From Mytilus galloprovincialis (lineage: Eukaryota; Mollusca; Bivalvia; Mytilida; Mytilidae): 64,000 nt of DNA. Positions 15,486 to 52,810 of this stretch are shown here, piece after piece. A model generated the notes under the pieces. It did no database searches. It was not told the DNA's origin and saw only the letters and a list, made by a program, of their open reading frames with translations. The translations under genes and the position numbers were made by a program. Position 1 is the first letter of the stretch. Each line of letters opens with the position of its first letter. The DNA lies in the NCBI RefSeq assembly GCF_965363235.1, contig NC_134838.1, positions 3,539,001-3,603,000 on the forward strand, read 5' to 3'.

Positions 15486-16352
15486 TGTCGAGCCTTCGAC
15501 TTTAGTCGAAAAAGCGAGACTGAGCGATCCTACATTCCGTCGGCATCGGCGTCGTCGGCGGCGTCCACAAATATTCACTCTGTGGTTAAAGTTTTTGAAA
15601 TTTTAATAACTTTCTTAAACAATACTGGATTTCTACCAAACTTGGACAGAAGCTTGTTTATGATCATAAGATAGTATCCAGATGTAAATTTTGCAAAAAT
15701 AAAATTCCATTTTTTCTGTATTTTACTTATAAATGGACTTAGTTTTTTTCTGCGGGGGAACATTACATTCACTCTGTGGTTAAAGTTTTTAAAGTTTTAA
15801 TAACTTTCTTAAACTATCCTTGGTTTGTACCAAACTTGGACAGAAGCTTGTTTATGATCATAAGATAGTATCCAGAAGTAAATTTTGTAAAAAAATAAAT
15901 CCATTTGTTCCGTATTTTACTTTTAAATGGACTTAGTTTTTCTGCGGGGAAACATTTCATTCACTCTGTGGTTAAAGTTTTTAAAATTTTAATAACTTTC
16001 TTAAACTATCCTGGGTTTGTACCAAACTTGGACAGAAGCTTATTTATGATCATAAGATAGTATCCAGAAGTAAATTTTGTAAAAAGATAACTCCATTTTT
16101 TTCTGTATTTTACTTTTAAATGGACTTAGATTTTCTTCCAGTTAACATTACATACAGTCTGCAGTTAAATTTTCAAAACATTTATTAGATTCATTAACTA
16201 TCCTAAATTTTTACCAAACTTGGACAGAAGCTTCTTACAATCATAAGATAGTATCAAGAGGAATATTTTTATTGATTTTTTTCCTCATTTTTGTTGAGCC
16301 TGCGATTTACATCAAAAGTAGGCGAGACACTGGGTTCCACGGAACCCTTACA
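15486..16352 (+). mobile_element. tandem-core cassette D, copy 1 (Helitron/pearl-like plan)
   Basis: The head is GTCGAGCCTTCGACTTTAGTCG followed by a GC-rich GTCGGC-repeat stretch. Four tandem units of about 193 bp follow, each with TTCACTCTGTGGTTAAAG, TAACTTTCTTAAACTATCC, CCAAACTTGGACAGAAGCTT and AAATGGACTTAG; the CTCTGTGG mark recurs at about 15578, 15772 and 15964. The tail is GTAGGCGAGACACT and a perfect hairpin GGGTTCCACGGAACCC (16332-16347). A second, longer copy lies at 34142-35378. The layout matches bivalve 'pearl'-type non-autonomous elements; the Helitron link is inference. Confidence 0.7.
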
Positions 16353-17929: not shown

Positions 17930-17957
17930 ATGTCATCCCACAAACAAGATGAGTTGT
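17930..17957 (+). CDS. PR/PLAG gene coding exon 1
   Basis: The ATG gives MSSHKQDEL plus the first base of a tryptophan codon, before the donor TGT|GTAAGT. An acceptor at 17900 and an in-frame TAG shortly before the ATG support this start. Only with the next exon does the expected W-C-x2-C start of the knuckle appear, which confirms the join. Confidence 0.75.
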
Positions 17958-20900
17958 GTAAGTAAAAAAAAACAAATATAAAGCAGCACATGTACATGAA
18001 AAGGACTGAAGAAAGTAGAATATATATATATCTAAATACAGTACAACCCTAAAACAGATAATTTTTTATAATGATACAATCTTCCCATAAGCATAAGTTG
18101 GTGATTGCTTTAATAAGTGCTTCAAAATCTTTCAATGTCTTGACTATGATTAAGGCCTAGAATGGAATGCAACAGACATTTCAGCAAAAAATAAATAATT
18201 TGGAAATGAGAGGAACCATTAAGATTACAATTACAAGCAATGTGTTGCTATTAGTATTACATGTACTTAAAACATAGAATCATCATGTACATGATGTAAA
18301 AAGCCAAACATTTTCATTTAGCATACGTTTTATCCGTCTATATCCGTTCTGTCCATTTGAAAATTTTGAGCATGTTCAAGGATGAAATGTCCGTTGAACG
18401 TCCTTTTTGTACGGTACTCATCCGTTTCGATTCCGTTTTGTATCCGTTACGTGTCCGTTACACATCCGTTGGAGTCTGGCAGATAAATTCTCCAACGGAC
18501 TTCTAACGGATGAAACGGATGTTGAACGAATGTGAAATGGATGTATAACGGATAAAACGGATGATGAACGGATCTGAAATGGATAAATGCCAATTGAAAA
18601 TTTCACGTCAGAAATACCAATTAGATTTCTTAAGGTTCATGAATTCTTATTTTTCACAATCGATCTTAGAGTAAGGGCACGTCTTCACAATCAAGCAGAT
18701 CTTATTCAGACCAGACACTGCTGTTTGGCGGTATTTTGAAGAACAAACCAAAACCAGTTACACAGAAACATTTTGAATATTTATGTGATTTACATGTATT
18801 ATTATTGTCGCCTTTTATTTTTCTGTATATCTTGTTCATCCCTTTTATCCAGTACATGTCCGTTGGATGTACGTTTGACATCCCTTCTGTCTGGTACGTT
18901 TCCATTTCTCGTACGTTTCTCTCGTGTGTGTCCGTTATGCATTCGTTAAGCGTCTGTTTAATGTGCTCAGTACATCAACGGACTCCCAACGAATAACAAT
19001 TTATGTCAACGGACAACTTTTATTTTCATTTGTTAGGCATCTGTTCGTGCTATCTGGTAAGGTGTGACAGAGGCGAGGCTTTAAAAGAATATGTTTTATC
19101 ACATGGAGCATAGTACAATATAAGACATTAATAAACAATAACAAAAATAAACAACAATAGTCTAGTATATGACTAGTATATGATCAATCTGAAATTTTCT
19201 CTATTCATTAAGATATCCATGCATTGTATGTTTTTAGGACTAATGCAATTACAATGAGACAAGGTAAAGAGAAGATGTTTATAATTATTTCCTTTTTTTA
19301 ATAGGGTGCCATGACTGTGGGAAGAGTGTACCAGGAATATGTAAGAAACATGGTGGTTTTACACAAGTTTTTGATAATGCCATACCATCAAGGGCAAGAC
19401 TAACATGCCCAGCTGGTCTTGTTATTAAGCAAGTGAAGACGGAAGATGGTAAAACATGTGAGTATATCATTGTCATTGTGTATGAAAAGATACACCAAAA
19501 AGTAACCATTGTAACTGTTAAATTAATAAAACAATTCAGTGAAAATTTTGTTTTGTATTTAAGAATTTCATTGGAGGTTTGCAGTTACAAGGAACCGACA
19601 GGAAATTAAATAAATTTATCATCTTTATAAAATTTAATGTTGTGATAGGATTGCCAATGAGAAAAGAGCTGTCAATCAGAGACTAAACAATGAAAAGACA
19701 CTAGCGGCTACAGGTCACTGTCTGAAAGTAGTTCTGTAAATTATTTGTGGTTTGTGTTGCTAATACAGGGAACATCTGGTAAATAGAAAACTTCATACAT
19801 AGATTTAACTGCATTGATACATATTGATGAACTTTTGTTTTAATTAATTTTGCATTTCAATACTTTTGTTTTACAGCTTATGGTATCTTTGCCAAAAGAA
19901 TAATACAATGCAGATCCCAGTTTGGACCTCTCTATGGACAAGTTAAATCTACAGAAAAACATACTCCAAAGAAAGAGACTACAGATGTTAGTGGAGATGA
20001 AAAACCAGCAAAGGAAACCATTGAGGAAGGAGCACCTAGTGTTCAACTCATTGAGCCAGAAATAAATAACCAAATTCCACAAAATATTCCTCAAAATTCT
20101 CAGCAACAAGAAGCTGACATTCAAAGACAATTAAGCATTGAACCCCAGCAACAACAACAACATATTAACAGTTCTGAAATGATCCCACACAATGACGATG
20201 GGCATTTATTGTTACAAAACATTGACGGGTTTGATACTGCTAATATGCAACAACAGTTAGTATCTCAGCAATATTCACAACAAAACAACAATACTTTTAC
20301 ACTTCAACATCCGAACATTGACAAGGCTACACAGATAATGAATATCCAGAACTGTTTACATGCTGGTCCTTACGGGGATGCCGGACTACAACATCTAGCT
20401 GGTGGCTATACTCCACAGCAGGCGTTAGACATAGTGACAACCTTGTCTGGAGATACAGCTGCCAGTCAGTTTGAACAGCCACAATTGTCACAAGACCTAA
20501 CATTGCAAGCTTCTATTGAGGCTGGAATAACACCAGCTGATAGTTACGTTAGTGAGGGATTAACAGAAACACAGCTCTTAGAGCATCAAATAGCTGTAGC
20601 CACACAGGAACTTCAGAATATGACTTCTGATCAACAACCCTTACCACCAAGTAGTATGTCTCTTTCTTCACTGGAGAATACTACTTTACCTTCAACTGAT
20701 CACATGCAACATAATACTACTGAGTCCTTACAACAAAATGCTGTGCTTGCCTCAACTGAACCTTTGCCTACAGAACTTACTAGTGAATCAGAACAACAGC
20801 CACAAAATTCTGCAGATCAGCCTCTTGCCACAGAAGTTACAGAACAGACAGGTGAAAAGGAAAAAGAAACAGAAAAAAAAGAACTAGATTATACCTACGA

Positions 20901-23900
20901 GATTAAGGTTCGGTTTTGAAACATTTTTCAACATTAACACTTTATGAATCACATTCATTTTGTTAAAAGGTTTTGAGTTGTTGAAACAATGATTCTTACA
21001 CTCTCTTTTGCTCAGATTTATTATATAAAAACTGTGCTTTCTACTACAAATTCATGTACACCTAACCCTAGGACAGTGGTCATACAGAACAATGTACAAA
21101 CAATTAACCAAAAACAAATATGTTAAACTTAAAAATCAGCAGTCAACAACCTCTCTAGATCAATTACAGTCTAAATTGTAGTTTTTTTTTTAGAACAACA
21201 AGTTTCACCATCCAAACACCTGAACTCTGTTTGGTCATATAGCTCCTTTACATATCTTTGGCTTTGTAATGTTTAGGTTTGATTGTTCCTGATGAAGGTA
21301 AATGTACTTCAGATGCACACATTTTATAAAGTGTTAATTTGATTGACAAGTATTATTTAATATCATGCATGTATTTGATAAGGATAAAGGTTTTGTTAAT
21401 GCTTTTGGTCCCTTTTCAGTTGAACTAAAAACCAATTCTTATCAATTACAGATATTTAAGGATGATGGCTTTGTTGATAATATTGATATCTCAGATGAAG
21501 ATAAAAGTAACTGGATGATGTTTGTTAGACCAGCCAGAAATACAGCTGAACAAAATGTTGTTGTCTATCAACAAGACGAGCATATCTTCTTTGTATCTAT
21601 AAAGGTTTGTACATGCAATATTTTTAACCAAACTCATATATTTGAATATATTTTAGTTAATCTGTCCCTGAAGGGCTATTTGAGCTTAAAATACACAGAG
21701 AGTGTTGTGATTCCGATACCGTGCTCACCTAAAACTGCAGCATGTTCATGCAGTGGTAGAATATTAACAATTCAAACAAAACTACAACCATTCACATATT
21801 TTACATTTAGAATGCATGCATCCTGCAACAGTGGGTTGTTATATACAATGGTAGAAAAGCTTTCAAGGAAAATAACTCATTCATGACAAGAGAGAGTGAC
21901 GAAAGATGCCAGAGGGACAGTCAAACTCATCAATCAAAATAAACTGACAACGCCTTGGCTAAAAATAGGGGAGACTAACAGACAAATAATAATACACATG
22001 ACACAACATAGAAAACTAAAGACTCAACAACACGAACCCCACCAAAAACTAGGGGTGATCTCAGGTGCTCAAGAAGGGTAAACAGATCCTGCTCCACATA
22101 TGGCACCCATCGTGTTGCTTATGTTATTACAAATTCAGTAAATAGTCTAATTCGGTAGGTCACATTCATAAAAAGGGAAGGGGTTTTGTAGTTACAACAT
22201 AAGGAACATATCTGATATCATCAGTGAAACGGTTATTCCATAACGGTCAACCAACTCATGATGGCGTGACTGGCGTCTGTAAAATTTACGAAGTTCATAA
22301 CAAGTTTCATATGTAAAAGTTAATTTCAGTGTGACTGATTGACTACATCATAAGTTTACTGTGTGTCAATGCATTCACTACAAAAATTCATACTATACAT
22401 GTGTCTTAGTCATACACAGGTGTTAAACAAATTAAAATTTTGAAAAAAAACTTAATATGTCATGTTTTTTAAAGTTCCAGGACATAGATAGTATGATTTA
22501 TGTATGAATTTTAGGGAAAATTTCCCTTGAAAGAATGAGTAGGTGAAAGTACATTTCAGAATTTTAATTGATAAATTTTTAATTCTTCTTTAAAACAGCC
22601 AATTCCCTCTAACACTGAGATAAAAGTTTGGTATTCTGCTGAGTATGCTGAGATGATGGACAAACCACTTCTCCCTGATCCAGAACCTATCATCACAGAA
22701 ACACCGGATCAGGAAGCTACAGGTACAGTGGCTATTACCTACATGTAGTTAGAGTGCTTGGTATATAGTTTTTGATCTGTCTACCAGTTCTCAAGTAAAA
22801 GTCTGTTTATCAGTCTGTTAGTTGTTATACTTATAGTTAGATACTTGAACAAAATTGAAAGACCCACAGAAATATCATGAATATTTATACTTCCTTAGTT
22901 AATTTAAAAAACACACTTCACAATATTATTATGTGAACTATGTAAATATGATGGTTACTGTTGTTAGCAATTATAGGATTCAAGTCTTAACAGTCTTTAA
23001 TTCATTTAATTGTAAAATAGAAGATGTGGTATGATTGCCAATGAGACAACTCTCCACAAGAAACCAAATGACACAGAAATTAACAGCTATAGGTGACCGT
23101 ACAGCCTTCAACAAAGAGAAAACTTATACCACATAGTCAGCTATTAAAGGCCCTGAAATAAAAAATGTATAACAATTCAAATGAAAAAAACTAAGAGCCT
23201 CATTAATGTACTTAAAAATGATAAAAAACAAATATGTAACACATGAATTTAAAGTTAGAATGAGTAACCATGGAAGACATCTTTAAAATAAATAGCTCCA
23301 AATGTTGCATATTGAAAGCTCTCCTTACACTAGAAATAGACAACAATTGTTAAGTAAGGCACTATTACACTACCAGGGTTCTCACTAGGAATTTTTCATG
23401 GTGAGTCCTGGGACTCATCACTTTTAGAAATGGTGAGTCCCAAAAGATTTTGATGAGTCCAGGATGCATGTATTTTTTTGTGTCATAATATAATGAAATA
23501 TGACGAAATACAACTGAAACGATGCGTGTTGGGTTGGTAGTTTTTATTAAATCAATAAAAATTATGACCTCTTAAAAGTTATTGCTCAAAATATATACAT
23601 GTAACAGACTTCTTTCTGGGTCTATCATATTCTTGATGTGGGGCCACATTGAAAAAAAAATGTTGGTTTGTCAAAAACAGAGTTCCATAAAAAACATAAA
23701 AAAGATCAGGGCGATAGGTAGGGTTTTATTTTTTTTTTTTAATATGAATGGACTATTTAATAGTAAACTCAGTTAAAGAATTTGTCTTGTCATTTTTAGT
23801 TACCAAAATTTATTAAAATTACAAAAAAAAATAACCTTACAAATTAACCCCTTCCCCTCTACACCCTTTTCCCAATTAAATAAGTGTAGAATGAATTATA

Positions 23901-26627
23901 AACACCAAGTTTAACTACTTTCATGGCACTACCATATCAGCTGTTTGTTTTAAATGTCTATAAAATTATAAATATCCAGACAGAGTTGTCTGTTACTTAG
24001 GTGTTTCCCCAAGTATTTTTTCCCGCCTAAAATGATCATGTGACATGTTTGTCAACAAAAGAAAACATTTGGTCAAGGAATTCATTTAATTTCTGGATTA
24101 TTCTGCTTTTAATCCATTTAAGGTAAAGTCAAGTATTTGTATTTAAAAAAATAGTTTGCAAACAATTTTTACTTTCAATTTGACAAATGTCTCATGATCA
24201 CCGTTCATTGGCTTGTTCAACCATGCAGACAATGTAAATTATGTAAATTATAAATCTATCAGCTGTCAAAAATATTGATCTACACATCACATCGATGTTT
24301 TGACATCGACTTCCGGTTTAGTTTCTAATCAAAACAACGGCTCAAAACAATGTCATATCATAAATCTTCTAGGCAAAACGATGTTTCTGGGACTCAGGGG
24401 ATACAATCAGGACGCGTCCCATGGACTCGCGGGTTTTAAAAATGACGCGTTCAGCTCGATTCCCATGCGTCCAGGACGCGTATATGCGTCTTAACGAGAA
24501 CCCTGCACTACCAATGCTTTGAAATGTATTGGTACATGTATTGTTATATAATTTGTTGTCATTGTGAAGAGAATACTATTTTGCATTTTAGGTGTGGCTG
24601 CAAAGTGGGTGTGTTCAGTCTGCTATGATGGTTTCAGTGCTTTTGCTGACCTAGAAGCCCACTTGTGTCCAGGATTACCACCTGACAGTCGTAGATTGAG
24701 GGGCAGACCAAGGAAAGGGAGACCAAGAAAGTATATCAAACCATCTAAAACTTGGAGAGCTAGATTGGAGAAGTCAAGAATGTTAAAAGCTAAGGTTGTA
24801 GATCCTTCTCAGTCTCAGCCTCTTCCGCCAAGGAGGAGAGGGAGACCACCCAAGAATAAACGACCTGCCTTAGATATACCTCCACCCCTACAAGTGGAGG
24901 AGACACCTGATGATCAGGTATTAGACGGGGAACCAGAAGATAAAGCGTACATGGAACAAGTCATGGATGATGATGAAGATGAGGAGAAGACTACTACAGA
25001 AATGTTAGATGAAATATTGGGAGCAGACGAAGATTATCCTGAACCTATGCCACGTAGGCGTGGTCGTAAAAAAGGAAGGATTCCACGTGGACCAAGGGCA
25101 TCTAGACGGGAACCAATGCAATGTCCTCATTGTACAGAAACATTTACAAAAGAAGCATTGTTTGTAATTCATGTGTCCGACCATACTGGAGTCAAACCGT
25201 TTATTTGTGAAGTTGCTGAATGTTCTAAGGGATTTATGTCCAAATTTAAGTTAGAAAGACATCGCTTGATTCATACATGTCCCCGTCATCACAAGTGTCC
25301 ATATTGTGACAAGTCATTCAATCGTAAAGATCACCTAAAAAATCACATGATTACTCACGACCCAAATAAGAAAAGATGGGTGTGTGAAGAGTGTGGCAAG
25401 GAATATTCTTACAACTTTTCCTACAGAACTCACAAGGCATTTCACGATGCTGATGCAGGAAGGTCTACAGAGTGTGGAATCTGTCACAAGCAGCATGAGA
25501 CAAGGGAAGAACTATTGTATCATTTGAAAGTACACAGTGGCGCCCGTTCAGTCAAAAATTGTACAGAAAAAATACATGCTTGCCCTGAATGTGGAAAGAA
25601 GTTTTATACGAGGAAAGATGTGAGAAGACACATGATTACGCATACAAAGAAAAAAGACTTTCTATGTCAATACTGTCCACAAAGATTTGGACGTAAGGAT
25701 CACCTGACTCGTCATTTGAGATCCTCTCATAGTGGTGACAATGCTAATAAACCTCCTAGAGCTCCTAGAGGTGAGAGGAAAGAAAAACTGAAGGAGTATG
25801 AAAAAGTTAGTGCTGCAGTGTTTCAAGCTCTTAATATTCCGAGAGAAGATCCAACAGTGCTGGTCACATCACAACCAAATATTAACAGCATTTATCATAC
25901 CATGCAAACAGCTGACGGACGTGAATTAGCCGTTCCTATTCAATTGTATGAAAATAATGCTCAGTCAGTGATTAATATGTCAAATATGCAGAATATACAC
26001 CAACAACAACATATACCTGCTCAAATGCAAAGTATGCAGGTAACTTCAATTGGATCACAGATGCAGCTAACAGATCAGAGATACATAGATGTCAGTGGGG
26101 GTGCCATACGTCACCAACAGCAAGGTATGGATCCAAACGCCCAAACTAACGAGTACCGACAACATCAGGTGCAAACACATGGCACAATGTACCTGACAAA
26201 CCAACAGCAGCCGGCACAACAACAAATTATAAACAAAGATGTTAATTTAGATATGATTAGAACAAATGGTGTCATACCGGCTGAATACCAAGTGAACCGT
26301 GACCAGACCAATCGACCAACCGTTGTGCAGACAAATGATAATAGACAACAATCTCAGACATTTTCCACACTATTAGGATACATGGAGACTTTAAGATTTT
26401 TAGAGAATCTACCAACCACTGCCCAAGGTGGTGTAATAGCTCAGATAGAAGGGGGACCCCCTACGATGGTACCTATCCAGTCGTCAGCGTATGCAGGTAA
26501 TGCTCCACTTAATATGAGCCATCAAAATGAGATGCAAAAACGTATACAAATACCTGTGTCACAACAGATTATACAACAACAACAGCAACAACAACAACAG
26601 CAACATACTTATCAACCACAGACATAA
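17930..26627 (+). CDS. PR-domain protein with PLAG1-type zinc fingers (six coding exons)
   Basis: Coding exons 17930-17957, 19305-19457, 19877-20907, 21452-21604, 22599-22722 and 24592-26627 join in frame to 1,174 codons plus TAA; split codons at the junctions fit (TGG, TCT, phase 0 twice, GGT). Order: a C-x2-C-x7-C-x2-H knuckle (residues 11-25); a PR domain starting near residue 36, interrupted by a glutamine-rich insert (about 90-395), and resuming with NWMMFVRPARN (424-434) and EIKVWY (462-467), closest in memory to PRDM10/15; a degenerate finger (504-522); AT-hook-like RGRPRK and RRRGRPPK motifs; an acidic patch; seven C2H2 fingers (674-876) matching PLAG1; and a glutamine-rich tail. Likely a nuclear DNA-binding regulator. 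Methyltransferase activity cannot be inferred. The donor at 20908 (AAG|GTTCGG) is the weakest border. A single transcript is inferred from splice phases and domain completion. Confidence 0.85.
18310..19068. mobile_element. non-autonomous TIR element E (copy 2), in intron 1 of the PR/PLAG gene
   Basis: It shares the TCCGTT/AACGGA motif field and the core CCAGTTACACAGAAACATTT with 7425-8077. The right end TGTTCGTGCTATCTGGTAAGG is preserved; the left terminus is eroded. Confidence 0.65.
19305..19457 (+). CDS. PR/PLAG gene exon 2: zinc knuckle and PR-domain start
   Basis: It encodes CHDCGKSVPGICKKHG and then FDNAIPSRARLTCPAG, as in the N-terminal region of PRDM10/15-like proteins. It is bounded by TTTTTTTAATAG and GTGAGT. 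It begins with GG completing tryptophan and ends with T of a serine codon. Confidence 0.85.
19877..20907 (+). CDS. PR/PLAG gene exon 3: PR-domain middle with glutamine-rich insert
   Basis: It begins SYGIFAKRIIQCRSQFGPLYG, a canonical PR-domain strand, and ends DYTYEIK, which leads directly into the next PR block. Between them lie about 300 residues rich in Q, N, S, T and E (several Q-runs, no predicted fold) in one uninterrupted 1,031-base exon. The insert is far longer than the linker at this place in vertebrate PRDM10 as I remember it. The reading extends upstream of the internal methionine at 20179, so that ATG is not the start. Confidence 0.8.
21452..21604 (+). CDS. PR/PLAG gene exon 4: PR-domain core
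   Basis: Fifty-one codons, phase 0 at both ends, from IFKDDGFVDNID through NWMMFVRPARNTAEQNVVVY to FFVSIK. NWMMFVRPA-N and EQN-x-V-x-Y-Q are hallmarks of the PRDM10/15 PR domain. Acceptor CAATTACAG, donor AAG|GTTTGT. Confidence 0.9.
21885..22135 (-). mobile_element. family J: 5'-truncated tail of the RT element, in intron 4
   Basis: In plus orientation it reads GCCAGAGGGACAGTCAAACT, ACGAACCCCACCAAAAACTA and CAGATCCTGCTCCACATATG, the same blocks as 49975-50155 and, inverted, 45170-45400 and 49485-49650. The blocks also follow the coding remnants of the RT fossils, so these solo copies are 3' tails. Confidence 0.6.
22599..22722 (+). CDS. PR/PLAG gene exon 5: end of PR domain
   Basis: It begins PIPSNTEIKVWYSAEYAEMM, the last strand and C-terminal helix of the PR fold, then an acidic proline-rich linker. 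Acceptor TTTAAAACAG; donor ACAG|GTACAG in phase 1, completed as glycine by the last exon. Confidence 0.9.
22990..23190 (-). repeat. interspersed family A fragment, intron 5
   Basis: On the minus strand it carries ATAGCTGACTATGTGGTATA and TTTCTTGTGGAGAGTTGTCT, the 3' blocks of family A. Confidence 0.6.
23374..24505. mobile_element. 1.1-kb hAT-like non-autonomous element in intron 5
   Basis: The ends CAGGGTTCTC and GAGAACCCTG are perfect inverse copies and of the CAGGG type used by hAT elements. CACTAC lies directly outside both ends (extending to CACTACCA if the boundary is shifted), consistent with a 6-8 bp duplication. Subterminal GACTC/GAGTC and GGACGCGT motifs repeat near the ends. There is no transposase reading; a 64-residue ORF near 24300 has no recognisable content. 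Confidence 0.75.
24592..26627 (+). CDS. PR/PLAG gene exon 6: AT-hooks, seven PLAG-type fingers, Q-rich tail
   Basis: Starting at VAAKWVCSVC, it encodes a degenerate C-x2-C...H-x-C finger, basic AT-hook-like segments, an acidic block (DDDEDEE) and seven C2H2 fingers. The third has SFNRKDHLKNH, the sixth FYTRKDVRRH and the seventh CQYCPQRFGRKDHLTRH, nearly identical to the matching fingers of vertebrate PLAG1, as is the linker HDPNK. The C-terminus is rich in Q, N and M and ends with a CAA/CAG run. The methionine at 24564 is in the intron and is not a start. Confidence 0.92.
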
Positions 26628-31138: not shown

Positions 31139-32194
31139 TTAACACCCTGTAATGACCATCTTGTAAAATCTAGTGGAGCTATTTACGCAATGCATATATA
31201 ACACATTGAATGATCCTTCTGTAGTGATGGCTAGCTGTTCTGGCAAGTATATTTCTATGTCCGTGGTATTGTAGGTGGTTAGTAGATAACTACTGTTATT
31301 CAGTATGTGTAATGTATGAATTTCCATGTCAACCACAATAACATTGTCAATTGGTGTGGTAGCTACTGATGATGGGTAGAATCTTCTTTTCCAACTGTAG
31401 TTAACTGTACAATTTTCTCTATAGATATTGATGATTTCTGTCTTCCCAAACACAACCACTTTATTTTCACCTGCCACAAATATATTCCCATTATTGGTGC
31501 TGGTAATGTATGTTATTATACGCCTGAATAGTGGTTCATTGTCATTGTCCTTTTCATACCTTGTTAGATGTGTACCATCTGTATCCATAACAACGACCAC
31601 AAAATCTGCTTCTACTATCACTCTTCTATCTTTTGTCACATGCACTATGACTACACCATTTGATCCTAAGAAGTATATAGAATCAGTTACTTTATTAGAT
31701 CCAGCCTTGATCTACTTCAGTCTTGGGTCAAATGTAGCCAGTAGAATATCATTGCCAGGAGTAACATCTACACAAAATGCAATGATGTAAAAACTTGATA
31801 TGGCTTTTACTTTATCTCCTGAAAGTTTAACATTATGTAGTGCTGGTGGTGTTGTAAAAGGAGGGGAACCTTTTACCTCTTCTCCACCAATCCATAGAGA
31901 ATTATCATTGGCTACTGTCAAATTCATGTAGTAATAATCAATAGTCGGATATTCCGTCACATCTAAAATCTTTACTTGGATTGTTGTAATGCCAATAACA
32001 ACATGTCCATTTGCAGAACGATCTTTGTCTTTACATCTGTCACACAACATTGAGGCACATTTTTCACAACTCCATTTGCCACACTTACAGCCAATAGGAA
32101 TTTGTTCTAGCTTAAATGGCTCTACTGAACACTGTGACCAAGGCTGGGCCTGCGGCTGGGTCTGAGGCTGGGCTATAGATGTTGATGATCCCAT
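31139..32194 (-). pseudogene. B-box/beta-propeller (TRIM-like) protein gene, interrupted by one in-frame TAG
   Basis: An acceptor (TATTTTCAG) two codons before the ATG at 32194 opens a reading of 352 codon positions to the TAA at 31139. It has a short P/Q repeat, a small cysteine cluster (CKCGKWSCEKC, then CDRC) resembling a degenerate B-box, and a C-terminal region with propeller-type repeats: VHVTKDRRVIVEADF, ITSTNNGNIFVAGENKVVV and IDNVIVVDMEIHTLHILNN. This matches, from memory, bivalve-expanded TRIM-like/NHL-like proteins. A single TAG at 31714-31712 splits the frame; both sides stay in the same frame with no other damage, so it is a young pseudogene, an allele, a sequencing error or a read-through gene. 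Upstream exons are not identified. Confidence 0.65.
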
Positions 32195-32289
32195 TATCTG
32201 AAAATATGATATAAAAGTTATATATATATAAGCAACTAAATCTAAACAAAAACAACATAACACGTTATACAGAAAATTCATTAAACTGG

Positions 32290-32373
32290 AGTCTATGATA
32301 GTGATGATGATGACAAAAACAGCAATAGAAATGAGGAACAGAATATAGAGGAACAAGACCCTGTACAAACATA
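32290..32373 (+). repeat. coding-like scrap, inverted relative of 33650-33848
   Basis: Plus-strand reading YDSDDDDKNSNRNEEQN, then IEEQDPVQT and a stop. It matches the minus-strand reading YDSNDDKENDNRNKDRN, then IEEQDPVQ at 33848-33650. Source gene unknown. Confidence 0.5.
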
Positions 32374-32380
32374 ATTCTGT

Positions 32381-32860
32381 GTCATTTTATATAGGGTCTT
32401 CACTTTTCTGCTTGACATTTATTTTGATAGGATCTATCTTTAAAAATAAATTTCAAGCAGAAAACTTGAGCGTTGTCTCATTGGCACTCATACCACATCT
32501 TCTTATATCTATAAAAGTAATATGTAGCTTCGTAAAAAATTTCATTGATCAATCACAAGTGGATCCTATTAAAATAACTTTTAAACAGAAAATTGGAGAG
32601 TTGTCTCATTTGCACTCATACCATATCTTCTTATATATATGATAGTAATATGTAACGTCATACAAAATATCATTGATCTATGACAAGTAGTTCTTATCAC
32701 TGACTGACTTAATCAGAAAAAATACTAATTAATTCAAAGTCACTAGAACATGACTTCAAAATTTTAACTAAACTGATATGAACTGATAGTAATACAACTT
32801 TATATTATACAAAATATCATTGATCTATCACAAGAAGATCCTATCAAAAAACTTCCAAGC
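32381..32860 (+). repeat. diverged direct repeats, about four units
   Basis: Blocks of the form TACAAAATATCATTGATCTA, then TCACAAGNNGATCCTATC, recur near 32425, 32535, 32660 and 32810. Two are followed by GAGTTGTCTCATTTGCACTC-type sequence. An inverted piece lies near 33855. Confidence 0.55.
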
Positions 32861-34141: not shown

Positions 34142-35378
34142 AGACTAAGCGATCCTACATTCTGTCGGCGTCGGTGTCGTCGTCATCGTAGTCGTCGGCG
34201 GCGTCCACAAATATTCATTCAGTCTGTGGTTAAAGTTTTTGAAATTTCAATAACTTTCTTAAACTATACTGGATTTCTACCAAACTTGGACAGAAGCTTG
34301 TTAAAATAATCATAAGATAGTATCCAGAAGTAAATTTTGTAAAAATAAAATTTCTTTTTTTCCGTATTTTACGTATAAATGGACTTAGTTTTTTCTGCGG
34401 GGAAACATTACATTCACTCTGTGGTTAAAGCTTTTAAAATTTTAATAACTTTCTTAAACTATCCTGGATTTGTACAAAACTTGGACAGAAGCTTGTTTAT
34501 GATTAAAAGATAGTATCCAGAAGTAAATTTTAAAAAAAATAAATCCTTTTTTTCCGTGTTTTTCTTTTAAATGGACTTAAATTTTCTGCCAGAAACAACA
34601 CATTCACTCTGTGGTTAAAGTCTTTAAAATTTTAATAACTTTCTTAAACTATCCTGGGTTTGTACCAAACTTGGACAGAAGCTTGTTTATGATTAAAAGA
34701 TAGTATCCAGAAGCAAATTTTGTAAAAAAATAAATCCATTTTTTCCGTGTTTTTCTTTTAAATGGACATACATTTTCTGCCAGGAAACAACACATTCATT
34801 TTATGGTTAAAGCTTTTAAAATTTTAATAACTTTCTTAAACTATCCTGGATTTATACCAAACTTGGACAGAAGCTTGTTTATGATTATAAGATAGTATCA
34901 AGAAGTAAATTTAAAAAAAAAATAAATCCCTTTTTTTCTGTATTTTACTTTTAAATGGACTTAGATTTTCTGCCAGGAAACAACACATTCACTCTGTGGT
35001 TAATTTTTAATTTTTTTTAATAACTTTTTGATACTATTTTTAATTTGAACCAAACTTGGACAGAAGCTTGTTTTTGATGAAAAGCTAGTATCTAGAAGGA
35101 TATTTTGTTAATACTTTGTACCTGTGTATCTGTATTTTACTTATAAATGGACTTTTTTCTTCCAGTTAACATTACATACAATCTGCAGTTAAAAATTTTA
35201 AAACATTTATAATGTTCATAAACTATCCTGGATCTTTACCAAACTTGGACAGAAGCTTCTTACAATCAAAATATAGTATCAAGAGGAATATTTTTATTGA
35301 TTTTTTTCCTCATTTTTGTTGAACCTGTGATTTACAGCAAAAGTAGGCGAGACACTGGGTTCCGCGGAACTTTTACAA
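34142..35378 (+). mobile_element. tandem-core cassette D, copy 2
   Basis: Same plan as 15486-16352 but with about six units of about 195 bp (CTGTGG marks at about 34224, 34419 and onward) and the tail GTAGGCGAGACACT with hairpin GGGTTCCGCGGAAC at 35357-35370. The head is shortened, starting at ACTAAGCGATCCTACATTC. Different unit numbers in the two copies show expansion or contraction of the core. Confidence 0.7.
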
Positions 35379-49600: not shown

Positions 49601-52600
49601 TTTCGATTTATGAGTTTGAATGTCCCTCTGGTATCTTTCGTCCCTCTTTTATAAAACGATTATATTTTGAAAGTTGTATAGCATGTATCTCATCAAACTA
49701 TCATTGATATTTAAGACAAAAACGAGTTAAATTCACTTAAACAGTCGCTTTTCGTACGGAACCCAAACGATTTTAGAAAAATCTACCTTTCTTCTAAACG
49801 ATGACGCAAACCTTGTTATAATGTTGGTCAGATATAGTAAATGTCCCTTTTTTCTCTCAATTGGTTAGTATGTGTATATTCTTATTTATAATTACACACA
49901 AGTCTTTAGTAGATGAATACATCAAATTAGATGGATAGTCCGTGGATTGTTTGAATTCACAATCAAATTACATAAAAGAGGGGCGACAGATACCAGAGGG
50001 ACAGTCAAACTCATAGATAGACAAATAATAGTACACATGACACAACATAGCAAACTAAAGACTAAGCAACACGAACCCCACCAAAAACTGGGGATGATCT
50101 CAGGTGCTCCGGAAGGGTAAGCAGATCCTGCTCCACATGTTGCATCAGTCGTACTGCTACATAAAATGTACTTGTGTCAAATTCATGTGTCTTCTTACAA
50201 AACTTTCATCATTTAAACGTTATGAGTCCTGTAAAAAGTTCCAGATTTTTTAATGTTTACATTTCAGGAAATGTTATGGTTTTGTTAGCAGTAAGGAAAG
50301 TAAAGAAACTACAAACAGTGTCAAATATCTTTGTGATGAACCTGTCGGTCTGTGATTTGCTCAGTGTTTTATGCGTACTACCCTTCAATATATATACATA
50401 TGTAGCCGATGGATGGTTTATAGCAACGTCTTTATGCAAATTTATAGGATTTCTAGGGTACACATTAACTGGTTAGTTGCATTAAACTAAAATATCACAC
50501 CTCAAGAAATAAACAAAAACCAACAACAAATACAACGAAATAACCATCAACGAATAAAAAAACAAAAGCGATAACCAATAAAACAACAGAAAGCAGACAA
50601 GACGTAGAACGTTTTTTTTTAATATTTATAATGGCAAAAAGAACTTCTTAAGGTAGATGGGGTGTCTAAATTATAATCCATAGATTTTTTGGATAATTTG
50701 CCAAAATGTAGTTTATATTCTGCTTGTTTAAAAACCTTAATAAAAATAATGGGTCACGGGACTTATTTTCAAACTACATGTTGTGCAAAATTGACAGATT
50801 TTGTATAGATTATGCATGGAAAACCCAGTTTTCCGCCATAAAACCAAAAACTACACCATAGAATTTTGAGATAAAATATGAGAACATAGCTCCAATATTA
50901 TGCTTTCAGATAAGAAAAAGAAAAAACGGGGTCATCGGACTCATTTTCTTGCTACATACTAAAATGGGTAAATTCCTAACACAGTCTATTGTAAAAGTAA
51001 CACTATTTATATTATCTGCCCTTGCATTTGAGTTGCCTCCCCTTGTTTGCAAAGTTGGAAAAAATTGAATCAAACAAAAGTATTCGGGTTTTTGTAAAAT
51101 ACAACCATAAAGATGATTAAAACATGGCATTTTCTATATCATAATGAACATTCTTACACATGAATTACCTACTACTACTCAAAATTTACACATCTTATCA
51201 AAGATCTAAACCTTTATTTCTGGTATTTCAAAATCCAAGATGGAGGAAGACACCCTATCTACCTTAAAAAATCTCCAAAAAGTAACTCTTTGCTATTACA
51301 CAGCTATAATAGAGAAAATCTTTTGATATATGTTTTTCTTAAATATAATCTTACGTACAGTTATTTCCACCATGTCAAAAATCAAATGATTTCCAGATTT
51401 CTGACGTATTATTCATTACCTTTATATAAAACAGTATGAAAAAAATATAAGTCTATCTATTTTCTTTCAAATATAAATGCCAATTTCTATATAGCTTATG
51501 TCATCACTTTATATTTGATTTGGCTATCTAACTGTTTTGATTCGAGCGTCGCTGATGAGTTTGATGTTAACGTGATGCAATTATGATGTACAAATGTATC
51601 TTTAATGTGTTTTTGAACTTCTTTGATAAACAGAACAGTATATTTAGAATTGAATTGATTTTTGGTGTAAACTATATTATTCTATGTAGACAGTATTTCC
51701 CAAAGTGTTTTTTCTACCTAATGAAAGATATGTATAGATGTCAAGGTTTTGGTTCAATATATTTTGATTAAATCGTATGTTTTTTTCTTAATGGAATGTT
51801 TTCTTCTTTACATCATCTATATTAACGGCGTTACTTTTTACTTAAGATCCATTTGTACAAACAGTTATCCTGGAAGAATTTCATGAAATGGTTTCATATA
51901 TCATGCTTATTGACACATACAGTAATGCCATGACTAAGGTGTGATTTTACTTATGACTAAGGGGTCATTTTGTATTGCTAGATGACGTAGTTTCGCACTT
52001 CATAGTAAGCTGTAATAAAAACAAAGTAGATGCTGCATTATTGAAATGGATTAAGGATTTAGACGATCTGTAATTATTGAAGACAATTGAGATAAAAGTA
52101 TAAATTTTATGTTTGTACTAATAAATTTATTATCAATCTATATTTTAGGAACGACAATTATAACTATAACCTTGATAGCATACAATCGATGTAAACTTGT
52201 ACTGGATCCAGGTGGCTATAAGACATTGTACACAAACCGGAACATCACTATAATGTTAGTTATTGCTTGGTTTGTACCAGTCCTATGTTTAGTTCCAGCG
52301 CTTACAGGCGTTTGGGGGAATTTTGGTTATGTTGCCATGATGGTGTCATGTAATTTATTACTGGACCACAAAAATCAACTTTTTAAAATATTTCTTATGA
52401 TTGTCAGAGCGGTGATTCCATGCGTACTTATTGTCTTTTACTATGTGAGAATATATCATACCACGTTGAGAAGTCATCACCGTTTAAAACAACAGAGTCG
52501 ACAGCTTTCGTCGCTTGGTATTCATAACCAGCGATTAGAAATGCGCATGACAAGAATGATGTTGATAATATTTATAGTGTTTGCTCTTTCCTATTTTCCA

Positions 52601-52810
52601 TGTACAATTACTGGTATTGTGGACTGGAATACAGTTTTATCGAAGCAGTTTCACATGTTTTGCCAGTTATCTGTATGCATAGGAAGCGCTATAAACCCAA
52701 TCATATATGGCTTGATGAATTTGCAGTTTAGAAATGCATATATTCGAATATGTTGTTTGAAAAAACTATCAGAAACGGAACTCAAATCAAGGACACTCAA
52801 CCGCATATAA
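46530..52810 (+). CDS. rhodopsin-family GPCR, Tre1/moody-like (three coding exons)
   Basis: Exons 46530-46662, 50268-50471 and 52149-52810 join in phase 1 to 332 codons plus TAA; both junctions restore a glycine. The short N-terminus has an NET glycosylation site. Seven membrane segments are visible: TM1 ends AAGCAGNVMVLLAV, TM2 holds NLSVCDLL (Asp 74), Cys 101 at the start of TM3 can pair with Cys 180 in loop 2, TM6 holds FALSYFPC, and TM7 has the NPIIY motif (295-299). The DRY position reads NRC (125-127). NR in place of DR is, from memory, typical of insect Tre1/moody and related invertebrate receptors. A plasma-membrane receptor; ligand unknown. Both introns are filled with repeats. Family call is firm; the subfamily is tentative. 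Confidence 0.88.
47590..47755 (+). repeat. 66-bp tandem repeat, about 2.5 copies, in GPCR intron 1
   Basis: GCAATGGCACAAAAACA starts recur at about 47597, 47663 and 47729. Because the period is a multiple of three and stop-poor, several overlapping ORFs appear on both strands (for example QTNKQSNGTKT repeats). They are repeat artefacts unless expression is shown. Confidence 0.9.
48540..48670 (+). repeat. interspersed family I fragment, GPCR intron 1
   Basis: TTCTTTTGTAGACAAAAACG, then CGTCTGGCGTACAC and TTCTGGTATATATGATGAGC match 41365-41835. Confidence 0.5.
49485..49650 (+). mobile_element. family J: solo 3' tail of the RT element, GPCR intron 1
   Basis: TTGCTTAGTCTTTAGTTTTC, then TAGCCATGGCGTTGTCAG and GAATGTCCCTCTGGTATCTT. 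Confidence 0.6.
49975..50155 (-). mobile_element. family J: solo 3' tail, opposite orientation, GPCR intron 1
   Basis: In plus orientation it reads ATACCAGAGGGACAGTCAAA, CACGAACCCCACCAAAAACT and GCTCCGGAAGGGTAAGCAGA. With 49485-49650 it forms a tail-to-tail inverted pair about 300 bases apart. Confidence 0.65.
50268..50471 (+). CDS. GPCR exon 2: end of TM1 to TM3
   Basis: Acceptor TTACATTTCAG, donor ACTG|GTTAGT. It encodes NVMVLLAVRKVKKLQTVSN, TM2, loop 1 with DGW, and the start of TM3 with the disulfide cysteine. Reading upstream of 50268 is intron despite being open from an ATG at 50174. Confidence 0.9.
50652..51263. mobile_element. 612-bp TTAA-flanked TIR element (piggyBac-like), GPCR intron 2
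   Basis: GGTAGATGGGGTGTCT is inverted as AGACACCCTATCTACC (one mismatch), with TTAA at 50648-50651 and 51264-51267. The interior holds mirrored TCATCGGACTCATTTTC-like and GGGTCACGGGACTTATTTTC stretches. No transposase is seen. Confidence 0.8.
52149..52810 (+). CDS. GPCR exon 3: TM3 to C-terminus
   Basis: Acceptor TATATTTTAG. It encodes the rest of TM3 with AYNRC, then TM4-TM7 and a short tail with CCLKK after helix 8, a possible palmitoylation site. It stops with TAA at 52808-52810. Confidence 0.92.

Follow-up and report, generated by a model that had tools for sequence, protein, structure and literature searches.

The balance between forms of PRDM proteins with and without the PR domain (PR-plus and PR-minus) matters in cancer. 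Several members of the family make both kinds (PMC4009873, PMC13113268), and PRDM1, 2, 3 and 16 make PR-minus forms, some of them from inner promoters (PMC4009873). PRDM10 comprises a PR domain, ten fingers and a C-terminal glutamine-rich domain, and either end of the protein, together with the fingers, activates a reporter (PMC7368010). PLAG1, which is involved in cancer and growth (PMC6557853), and PLAGL2 recognise the site GRGGC(N6-8)GGG (PMC6262857); finger 3 of PLAG1 contacts the G cluster of the site, while fingers 6 and 7 contact the core (PMC12317869). Here we analyse 64,000 nucleotides from the mussel Mytilus galloprovincialis (contig NC_134838.1 of assembly GCF_965363235.1, positions 3,539,001 to 3,603,000 of the forward strand; the whole stretch is called the window below), in which one gene, at window positions 17930 to 26627, joins a PR domain to a PLAG-type seven-finger array. 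The presence of both in one gene is confirmed. It is well supported that this domain combination is real and remarkable, and it is plausible, though unproven, that the PLAG genes descend from a PRDM gene.

A PR domain and a PLAG-type array in one reading frame

The spliced frame consists of six exons on the forward strand, with an ATG at 17930 and a stop codon that ends at 26627. Its coding sequence of 3525 bases gives 1174 residues without an inner stop, and an in-frame TAA stands upstream of the start codon in exon 1. All five introns have GT and AG borders with matching phases, although the donors of exons 3 (GTTCGG) and 4 (GTTTGT) look weak by eye. An earlier note on this stretch, made from its letters alone, had given these coordinates and had described the splice phases as matching; it is exact on both points, and the five motifs it quoted are all found in the spliced translation. 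The features of the gene are as follows.

17930-17957, forward strand: exon 1, coding part, from the start codon to base 1 of the tryptophan codon in the putative knuckle; donor GTAAGT.
19305-19457, forward strand: exon 2, putative zinc knuckle (residues 10-26) and start of the PR domain.
19877-20907, forward strand: exon 3, PR domain as far as FGPLYGQVKS, then the glutamine-rich insert and YTYEIK.
19966-20880, forward strand: insert inside the PR domain, 305 residues (91-395), 15.4% glutamine, open in one of the six frames.
21452-21604, forward strand: exon 4, which continues the PR domain and contains NWMMFVRPARN; the PRDM2_PR match covers residues 392-477.
22599-22722, forward strand: exon 5, end of the PR domain, EIKVWYSAEYAEMMDKP, within the Pfam and PDB sequence matches.
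24592-26627, forward strand: exon 6, post-PR segment, basic stretches, seven PLAG-type fingers, glutamine-rich tail and stop.
24606-24668, forward strand: degenerate finger soon after the PR domain (residues 502-522), reached by the PR alignments with PRDM15 and PRDM10.
24696-25091, forward strand: region with three basic stretches (24696-24731, 24831-24866 and 25053-25091), AT-hook-like or nuclear-localisation-like, of putative function.
25047-25049, forward strand: ATG in the reading frame, 25 codons ahead of the first Cys in finger 1; a PR-less product might start here.
25122-25730, forward strand: seven-finger PLAG-type array (residues 674-876), with fingers starting at 25122, 25206, 25296, 25383, 25473, 25581 and 25665.
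25743-26624, forward strand: C-terminal tail, 294 residues, 18.4% glutamine, probably an activation region by analogy with PRDM10.

The open frames of the insert and of exon 6 are not the product of chance, since at the given base composition the probability of a stop-free run is 4.7e-9 for the 305 codons of the insert and 5.0e-20 for the 677 codons of exon 6. The remaining five frames of these two stretches contain 15 to 59 stops each.

The PR domain lies in two pieces (residues 38-85 and 399-478), and the insert sits between FGPLYGQVKS and YTYEIK. This insert, which is new relative to the earlier note, might make standard domain callers miss or split the PR domain. In Pfam, the protein matches PRDM2_PR (PF21549) with an E-value of 2.3e-31 and 108.5 bits (cut-off 27), SET with 24.6 bits (cut-off 22.4) and zf-C2H2 with 76.5 bits. 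When the knuckle and PR part, with the insert removed, served as the query against PDB sequences, the best matches were PRDM10 and PRDM4 (84.1 bits each, E 1.2e-22), followed by PRDM1 (75 bits), PRDM11 (68.5), PRDM12 (66.7) and PRDM9 (63); PRDM2, 5, 14 and 16 were also among the 16 matches, and PRDM15 was absent from them. The protein therefore has two features of the PRDM family, namely a PR domain recognised by Pfam and among PDB sequences and, in the genomic frame, C2H2 fingers downstream of it. The zinc knuckle is visible by eye in the alignment; its matches to Pfam Zn_ribbon_PRDM4 (E 0.25) and PDB 2l9z (E 0.46) are not significant. The earlier note had called the PR domain PRDM10/15-like, a label that is right in placing it near PRDM4, 10 and 15 but too narrow, because PRDM4 ties with PRDM10. 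It should be noted that Table 1 of PMC4009873 has "no" for histone methyltransferase activity of PRDM4, 10 and 15; for this reason, such activity is not assumed here.

Exon 6 opens with the segment WVCSVCYDGFSAFADLEAHL and not with the PLAG fingers. Here and below, the sequences of PLAG1, PLAGL1, PRDM15 and PRDM9 and the fingers of PRDM10 and PRDM4 are provisional ones, not copied from a database. The PR alignment continues through WVCSVCYDGFSAFADLEAHL for PRDM15 (96.7 bits) and PRDM10 (82.4 bits), whereas that of PRDM4 (76.6 bits) reaches a finger there only over 27 gap positions and that of PRDM9 (54.7 bits) ends short of this segment.

The finger array and its predicted binding site

The array is 51% identical to human PLAG1 over 204 residues in BLASTP (232 bits). 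In the same comparison, PLAGL1 scores 224 bits, PRDM15 118 and PRDM10 99. The best single stretch in phmmer gives 219.4 bits for PLAG1 and 211.9 for PLAGL1, as against 94.3 for the generic comparison array (ZNF568, copied from a PDB alignment), 54.5 for PRDM15, 51.6 for PRDM4 and 37.8 for PRDM10; whole-protein scores, which sum many fingers, are 138.9 for PRDM15, 86.9 for PRDM4 and 78.9 for PRDM10. By the single-stretch values, the array is not that of PRDM10 or PRDM15. No PLAG chain occurs among the 55 PDB sequence matches of the array.

None of 200 permutations of the finger order of PLAG1 reaches the true score (the best attains 204), and the co-linear chain score of the window array with PLAG1 was reached by 3 of 3000 shuffles. 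Two odd spacings, C-x4-C in finger 2 and a long linker between fingers 5 and 6, are common to the array and PLAG1. Thus the claim of a complete PLAG array in order, spacing and linkers holds, and with its seven fingers and both odd spacings the array has the features of the PLAG family. The family features that are lacking concern the rest of the protein: PLAG proteins have no PR domain and have their fingers near the N-terminus, whereas 668 residues precede the array here. We therefore file the gene as a PRDM gene with a PLAG array rather than as a PLAG gene proper.

The provisional human PLAG1 sequence agrees with PMC7762056 at Ser147, Lys184 and Arg197, and its last finger ends at residue 236, as published. 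The published start of the fingers, residue 34, is two residues before the first Cys of the provisional sequence, and a fourth published residue, Gln455, lies beyond the part that this sequence covers.

At the base-reading positions (-1, 2, 3 and 6), fingers 3, 6 and 7 are identical to PLAG1 and PLAGL1 in 12 of 12 cases, compared with identity to PLAG1 in 3 of 16 for fingers 1, 2, 4 and 5 (Fisher p 1.5e-5). According to PMC7762056, fingers 1-5 of PLAG1 alone gave no clear DNA binding. Since the fingers that read DNA, 3, 6 and 7, are those kept, the array is predicted to bind the same site, GRGGC(N6-8)GGG. As in PLAG1, the GRGGC-like core would be bound by fingers 6 and 7, and a GGG cluster at a distance of 6-8 bases by finger 3. 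Like both ends of PRDM10, the PR domain with its glutamine-rich insert and the C-terminal tail, also rich in glutamine, may recruit cofactors and mainly activate. Our best guess is an activator that acts at PLAG sites and recruits cofactors through these parts; its layout is that of PRDM10, except that the PLAG array occupies mid-protein and that the PR domain contains another glutamine-rich block.

Ancestral architecture or fusion

An unrooted tree was built from seven PR domains (those of the window gene and of PRDM1, 4, 9, 10, 11 and 15; PRDM2, 5, 12, 14 and 16 were left out). The window PR domain groups with PRDM4, 10 and 15 against PRDM1, 9 and 11 (support 89/89), and in the tree alignment its highest identity is to PRDM4, 39% over 165 columns. 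The WAG tree has path lengths of 1.92 from the window gene to PRDM10 and 1.81 to PRDM15, compared with 1.51 between human PRDM10 and PRDM15. Because the former paths exceed the latter, recent copying of either gene does not account for the window PR domain, though equally long paths would result from rapid change following a fusion.

In our opinion, the presence of a PR domain and a PLAG array in one gene suggests, but does not prove, that PLAG derives from a PRDM gene by loss of the PR domain. We judge it slightly better than an even bet that this is a single transcription factor gene with a PR domain of the PRDM4/10/15 kind and an orthologous PLAG array, most likely representing an old PRDM subfamily in which vertebrate PLAG1, PLAGL1 and PLAGL2 are the members without the PR end. 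For the full line of descent, in which the vertebrate PLAG genes derive from a gene of the PRDM4/10/15 kind, the window gene is a present-day orthologue in which the PR domain was retained, and PLAG is a fixed PR-minus form, the chances appear evenly balanced. The PR-minus forms that inner promoters are known to produce in PRDM genes would provide PLAG with an easy route to losing the domain. The earlier note had left the matter between fusion and ancestry. Its premises, that is, one gene, a PR domain near PRDM4, 10 and 15 and a PLAG array, stand; as to the choice between the two, ancestry is modestly favoured.

The main competing account is a lineage-specific fusion, in which a PLAG gene acquired the PR end of a PRDM gene and the PLAG genes of vertebrates have lacked this domain from the outset. 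We regard it as possible but doubtful. It agrees with the position of the PLAG1 fingers, which start at residue 34 (PMC7762056) and leave no room for a PR domain before them, and with the lack of detectable co-linearity between the arrays of PLAG and PRDM10; rapid change after a fusion would also fit the long branch that the window PR domain has in the tree. However, the distance from this domain to human PRDM10 or PRDM15 is larger than that between the two human ones, which is not what a recent copy would look like, and the post-PR finger came along with it, in the same exon as the array. The bivalve Mulinia lateralis is relevant here as well: 11 PRDM genes are reported from it in PMC10451705, none of them with a matching length and finger number (the PRDM4-like protein has 881 residues and 4 fingers, PRDM10 has 1481 and 12, and PRDM15 has 1619 and 20). 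That absence would favour a fusion, but naming of the Mulinia genes relied on SMART and CD-Search calls (PMC10451705), and a PR domain split by 305 residues could be missed in this way. Since PRDM10 and PRDM15 are separate genes in Mulinia, the window gene would be a further one. This also argues against a simple PRDM10 or PRDM15 orthologue with fingers that merely resemble those of PLAG, which we consider extremely unlikely. Its PR domain, post-PR finger, basic stretch and glutamine-rich tail do resemble PRDM10, PRDM15 is the best of the four sequences compared over the PR domain and post-PR segment, and BLASTP of the array also reports PRDM15 and PRDM10; in the same BLASTP comparison, however, PLAG1 scores about twice as high, and in phmmer the best stretches of PRDM10 and PRDM15 fall below that of generic ZNF568. 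Two neighbouring genes, a PRDM gene stopping before exon 6 and a PLAG gene starting within it, are very unlikely. In-frame ATGs do lie upstream of finger 1 within exon 6, intron 5 is 1.87 kb long, and reading on past exon 3 adds three residues before the protein ends. Yet, as the strongest argument for one gene, a PRDM-type post-PR finger stands at the start of exon 6 in an open frame that runs on into the PLAG fingers, with no splice between this segment and the seven fingers, and the phases match at all five introns. The single gene put forward in the earlier note is thereby supported.

Several points limit the preferred reading or weigh against it. The gene model is the genomic frame of one species, and many of the comparison sequences are provisional. 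A finger follows the PR domain in the provisional PRDM9 sequence too, so that this feature marks PRDM proteins and not PRDM10 and PRDM15 alone. In the tree, the window gene has the longest branch under both models (2.02 and 0.87) and is marked as unsure. On the PRDM4/10/15 side its position is left open by one model; the other (WAG) puts it with PRDM10 and PRDM15, apart from PRDM4 (88.2/82). The bivalve survey of 11 PRDM genes (PMC10451705) holds no match to the gene. Fingers 3-7 of human PLAG1 are encoded in exon 5 and the others in the exon before (PMC12317869), whereas all seven share one exon here. Finally, co-linearity between the arrays of PLAG1 and PRDM10 is not significant: 249 of 3000 shuffles reach their chain score when six PRDM10 fingers are used, and 894 of 3000 when nine are. 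The chain test is weak either way, as the counts with the unrelated ZNF568 array are 98 of 3000 for PLAG1 and 52 of 3000 for the window array. The window array itself gives 496 and 518 of 3000 against PRDM10 (six and nine fingers) and 2841 of 3000 against PRDM15.

A common origin of the PLAG and PRDM10 arrays, for which RKDFLC and the last two fingers look good by eye, was considered and rejected as evidence, because the chain test is not significant. For the last two fingers, the scores are 41.9 bits with PRDM10 and 37.2 with ZNF568.

If the proposed ancestry is true, the PLAG genes belong in the PRDM family, and the cofactor domain carried by the PLAG ancestor is identified. The gene also opens the origin of PLAG to a direct test through domain searches of a few invertebrate genomes. 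No relatives of the array, searched alone or as an alignment, were found in viral contigs or in bacterial and archaeal genomes, collections that are uninformative on animals. None of the papers listed in literature searches joins PLAG with a PR domain, as judged by titles and the starts of abstracts, which cannot show that the architecture is undescribed; the word "Plag" does not occur in PMC2889900 or PMC2082429.

A side observation concerns the ATG at 25047, which a basic stretch follows: translation from it would yield a protein with the layout of vertebrate PLAG1. Within intron 5 (about 23015-23060), a word of about 35 bases recurs, nearly identical by eye and on the opposite strand, in a tandem array at 32443-32688, and is probably a dispersed repeat. 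Apparently the same 192-base tandem repeat is found at 15573-16259 (3.6 copies) and 34216-35284 (5.6 copies). Ten neighbouring open frames were compared with Pfam; two match a G protein-coupled receptor family and eight have no match, which is uninformative for synteny. The two that match, at 50165-50473 and 52091-52807 on the forward strand, correspond to the start and the rest of a rhodopsin-type receptor (7tm_1) and are probably exons of one receptor gene. On the reverse strand, two adjoining open frames of 224 and 190 residues occupy 31142-32386, the first with a Cys-rich stretch; they have no Pfam match at E 0.01.

Comparison with known systems

The window gene shares with the PLAG family (PLAG1, PLAGL1/ZAC1 and PLAGL2) seven C2H2 fingers in the same order, with the same spacing and linkers; PLAG1 and PLAGL1 were the members compared. 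It differs from PLAG1, whose fingers begin at residue 34 and whose C-terminus is serine-rich (PMC7762056), in the 668 residues that come first and in its glutamine-rich tail. With PRDM10 and PRDM15 it has in common a putative knuckle, the PR domain, the finger soon after the PR domain and a basic stretch, and with PRDM10 the glutamine-rich tail as well. Unlike the array of PLAG1, those of PRDM10 and PRDM15 are no nearer to it in phmmer than a generic C2H2 array, and the PRDM10 and PRDM15 sequences compared are without an insert of comparable size. PRDM4 resembles it in a PR match equal to that of PRDM10 and, putatively, in a knuckle before the PR domain, but has, in the provisional sequence, another finger array and another segment after the PR domain.

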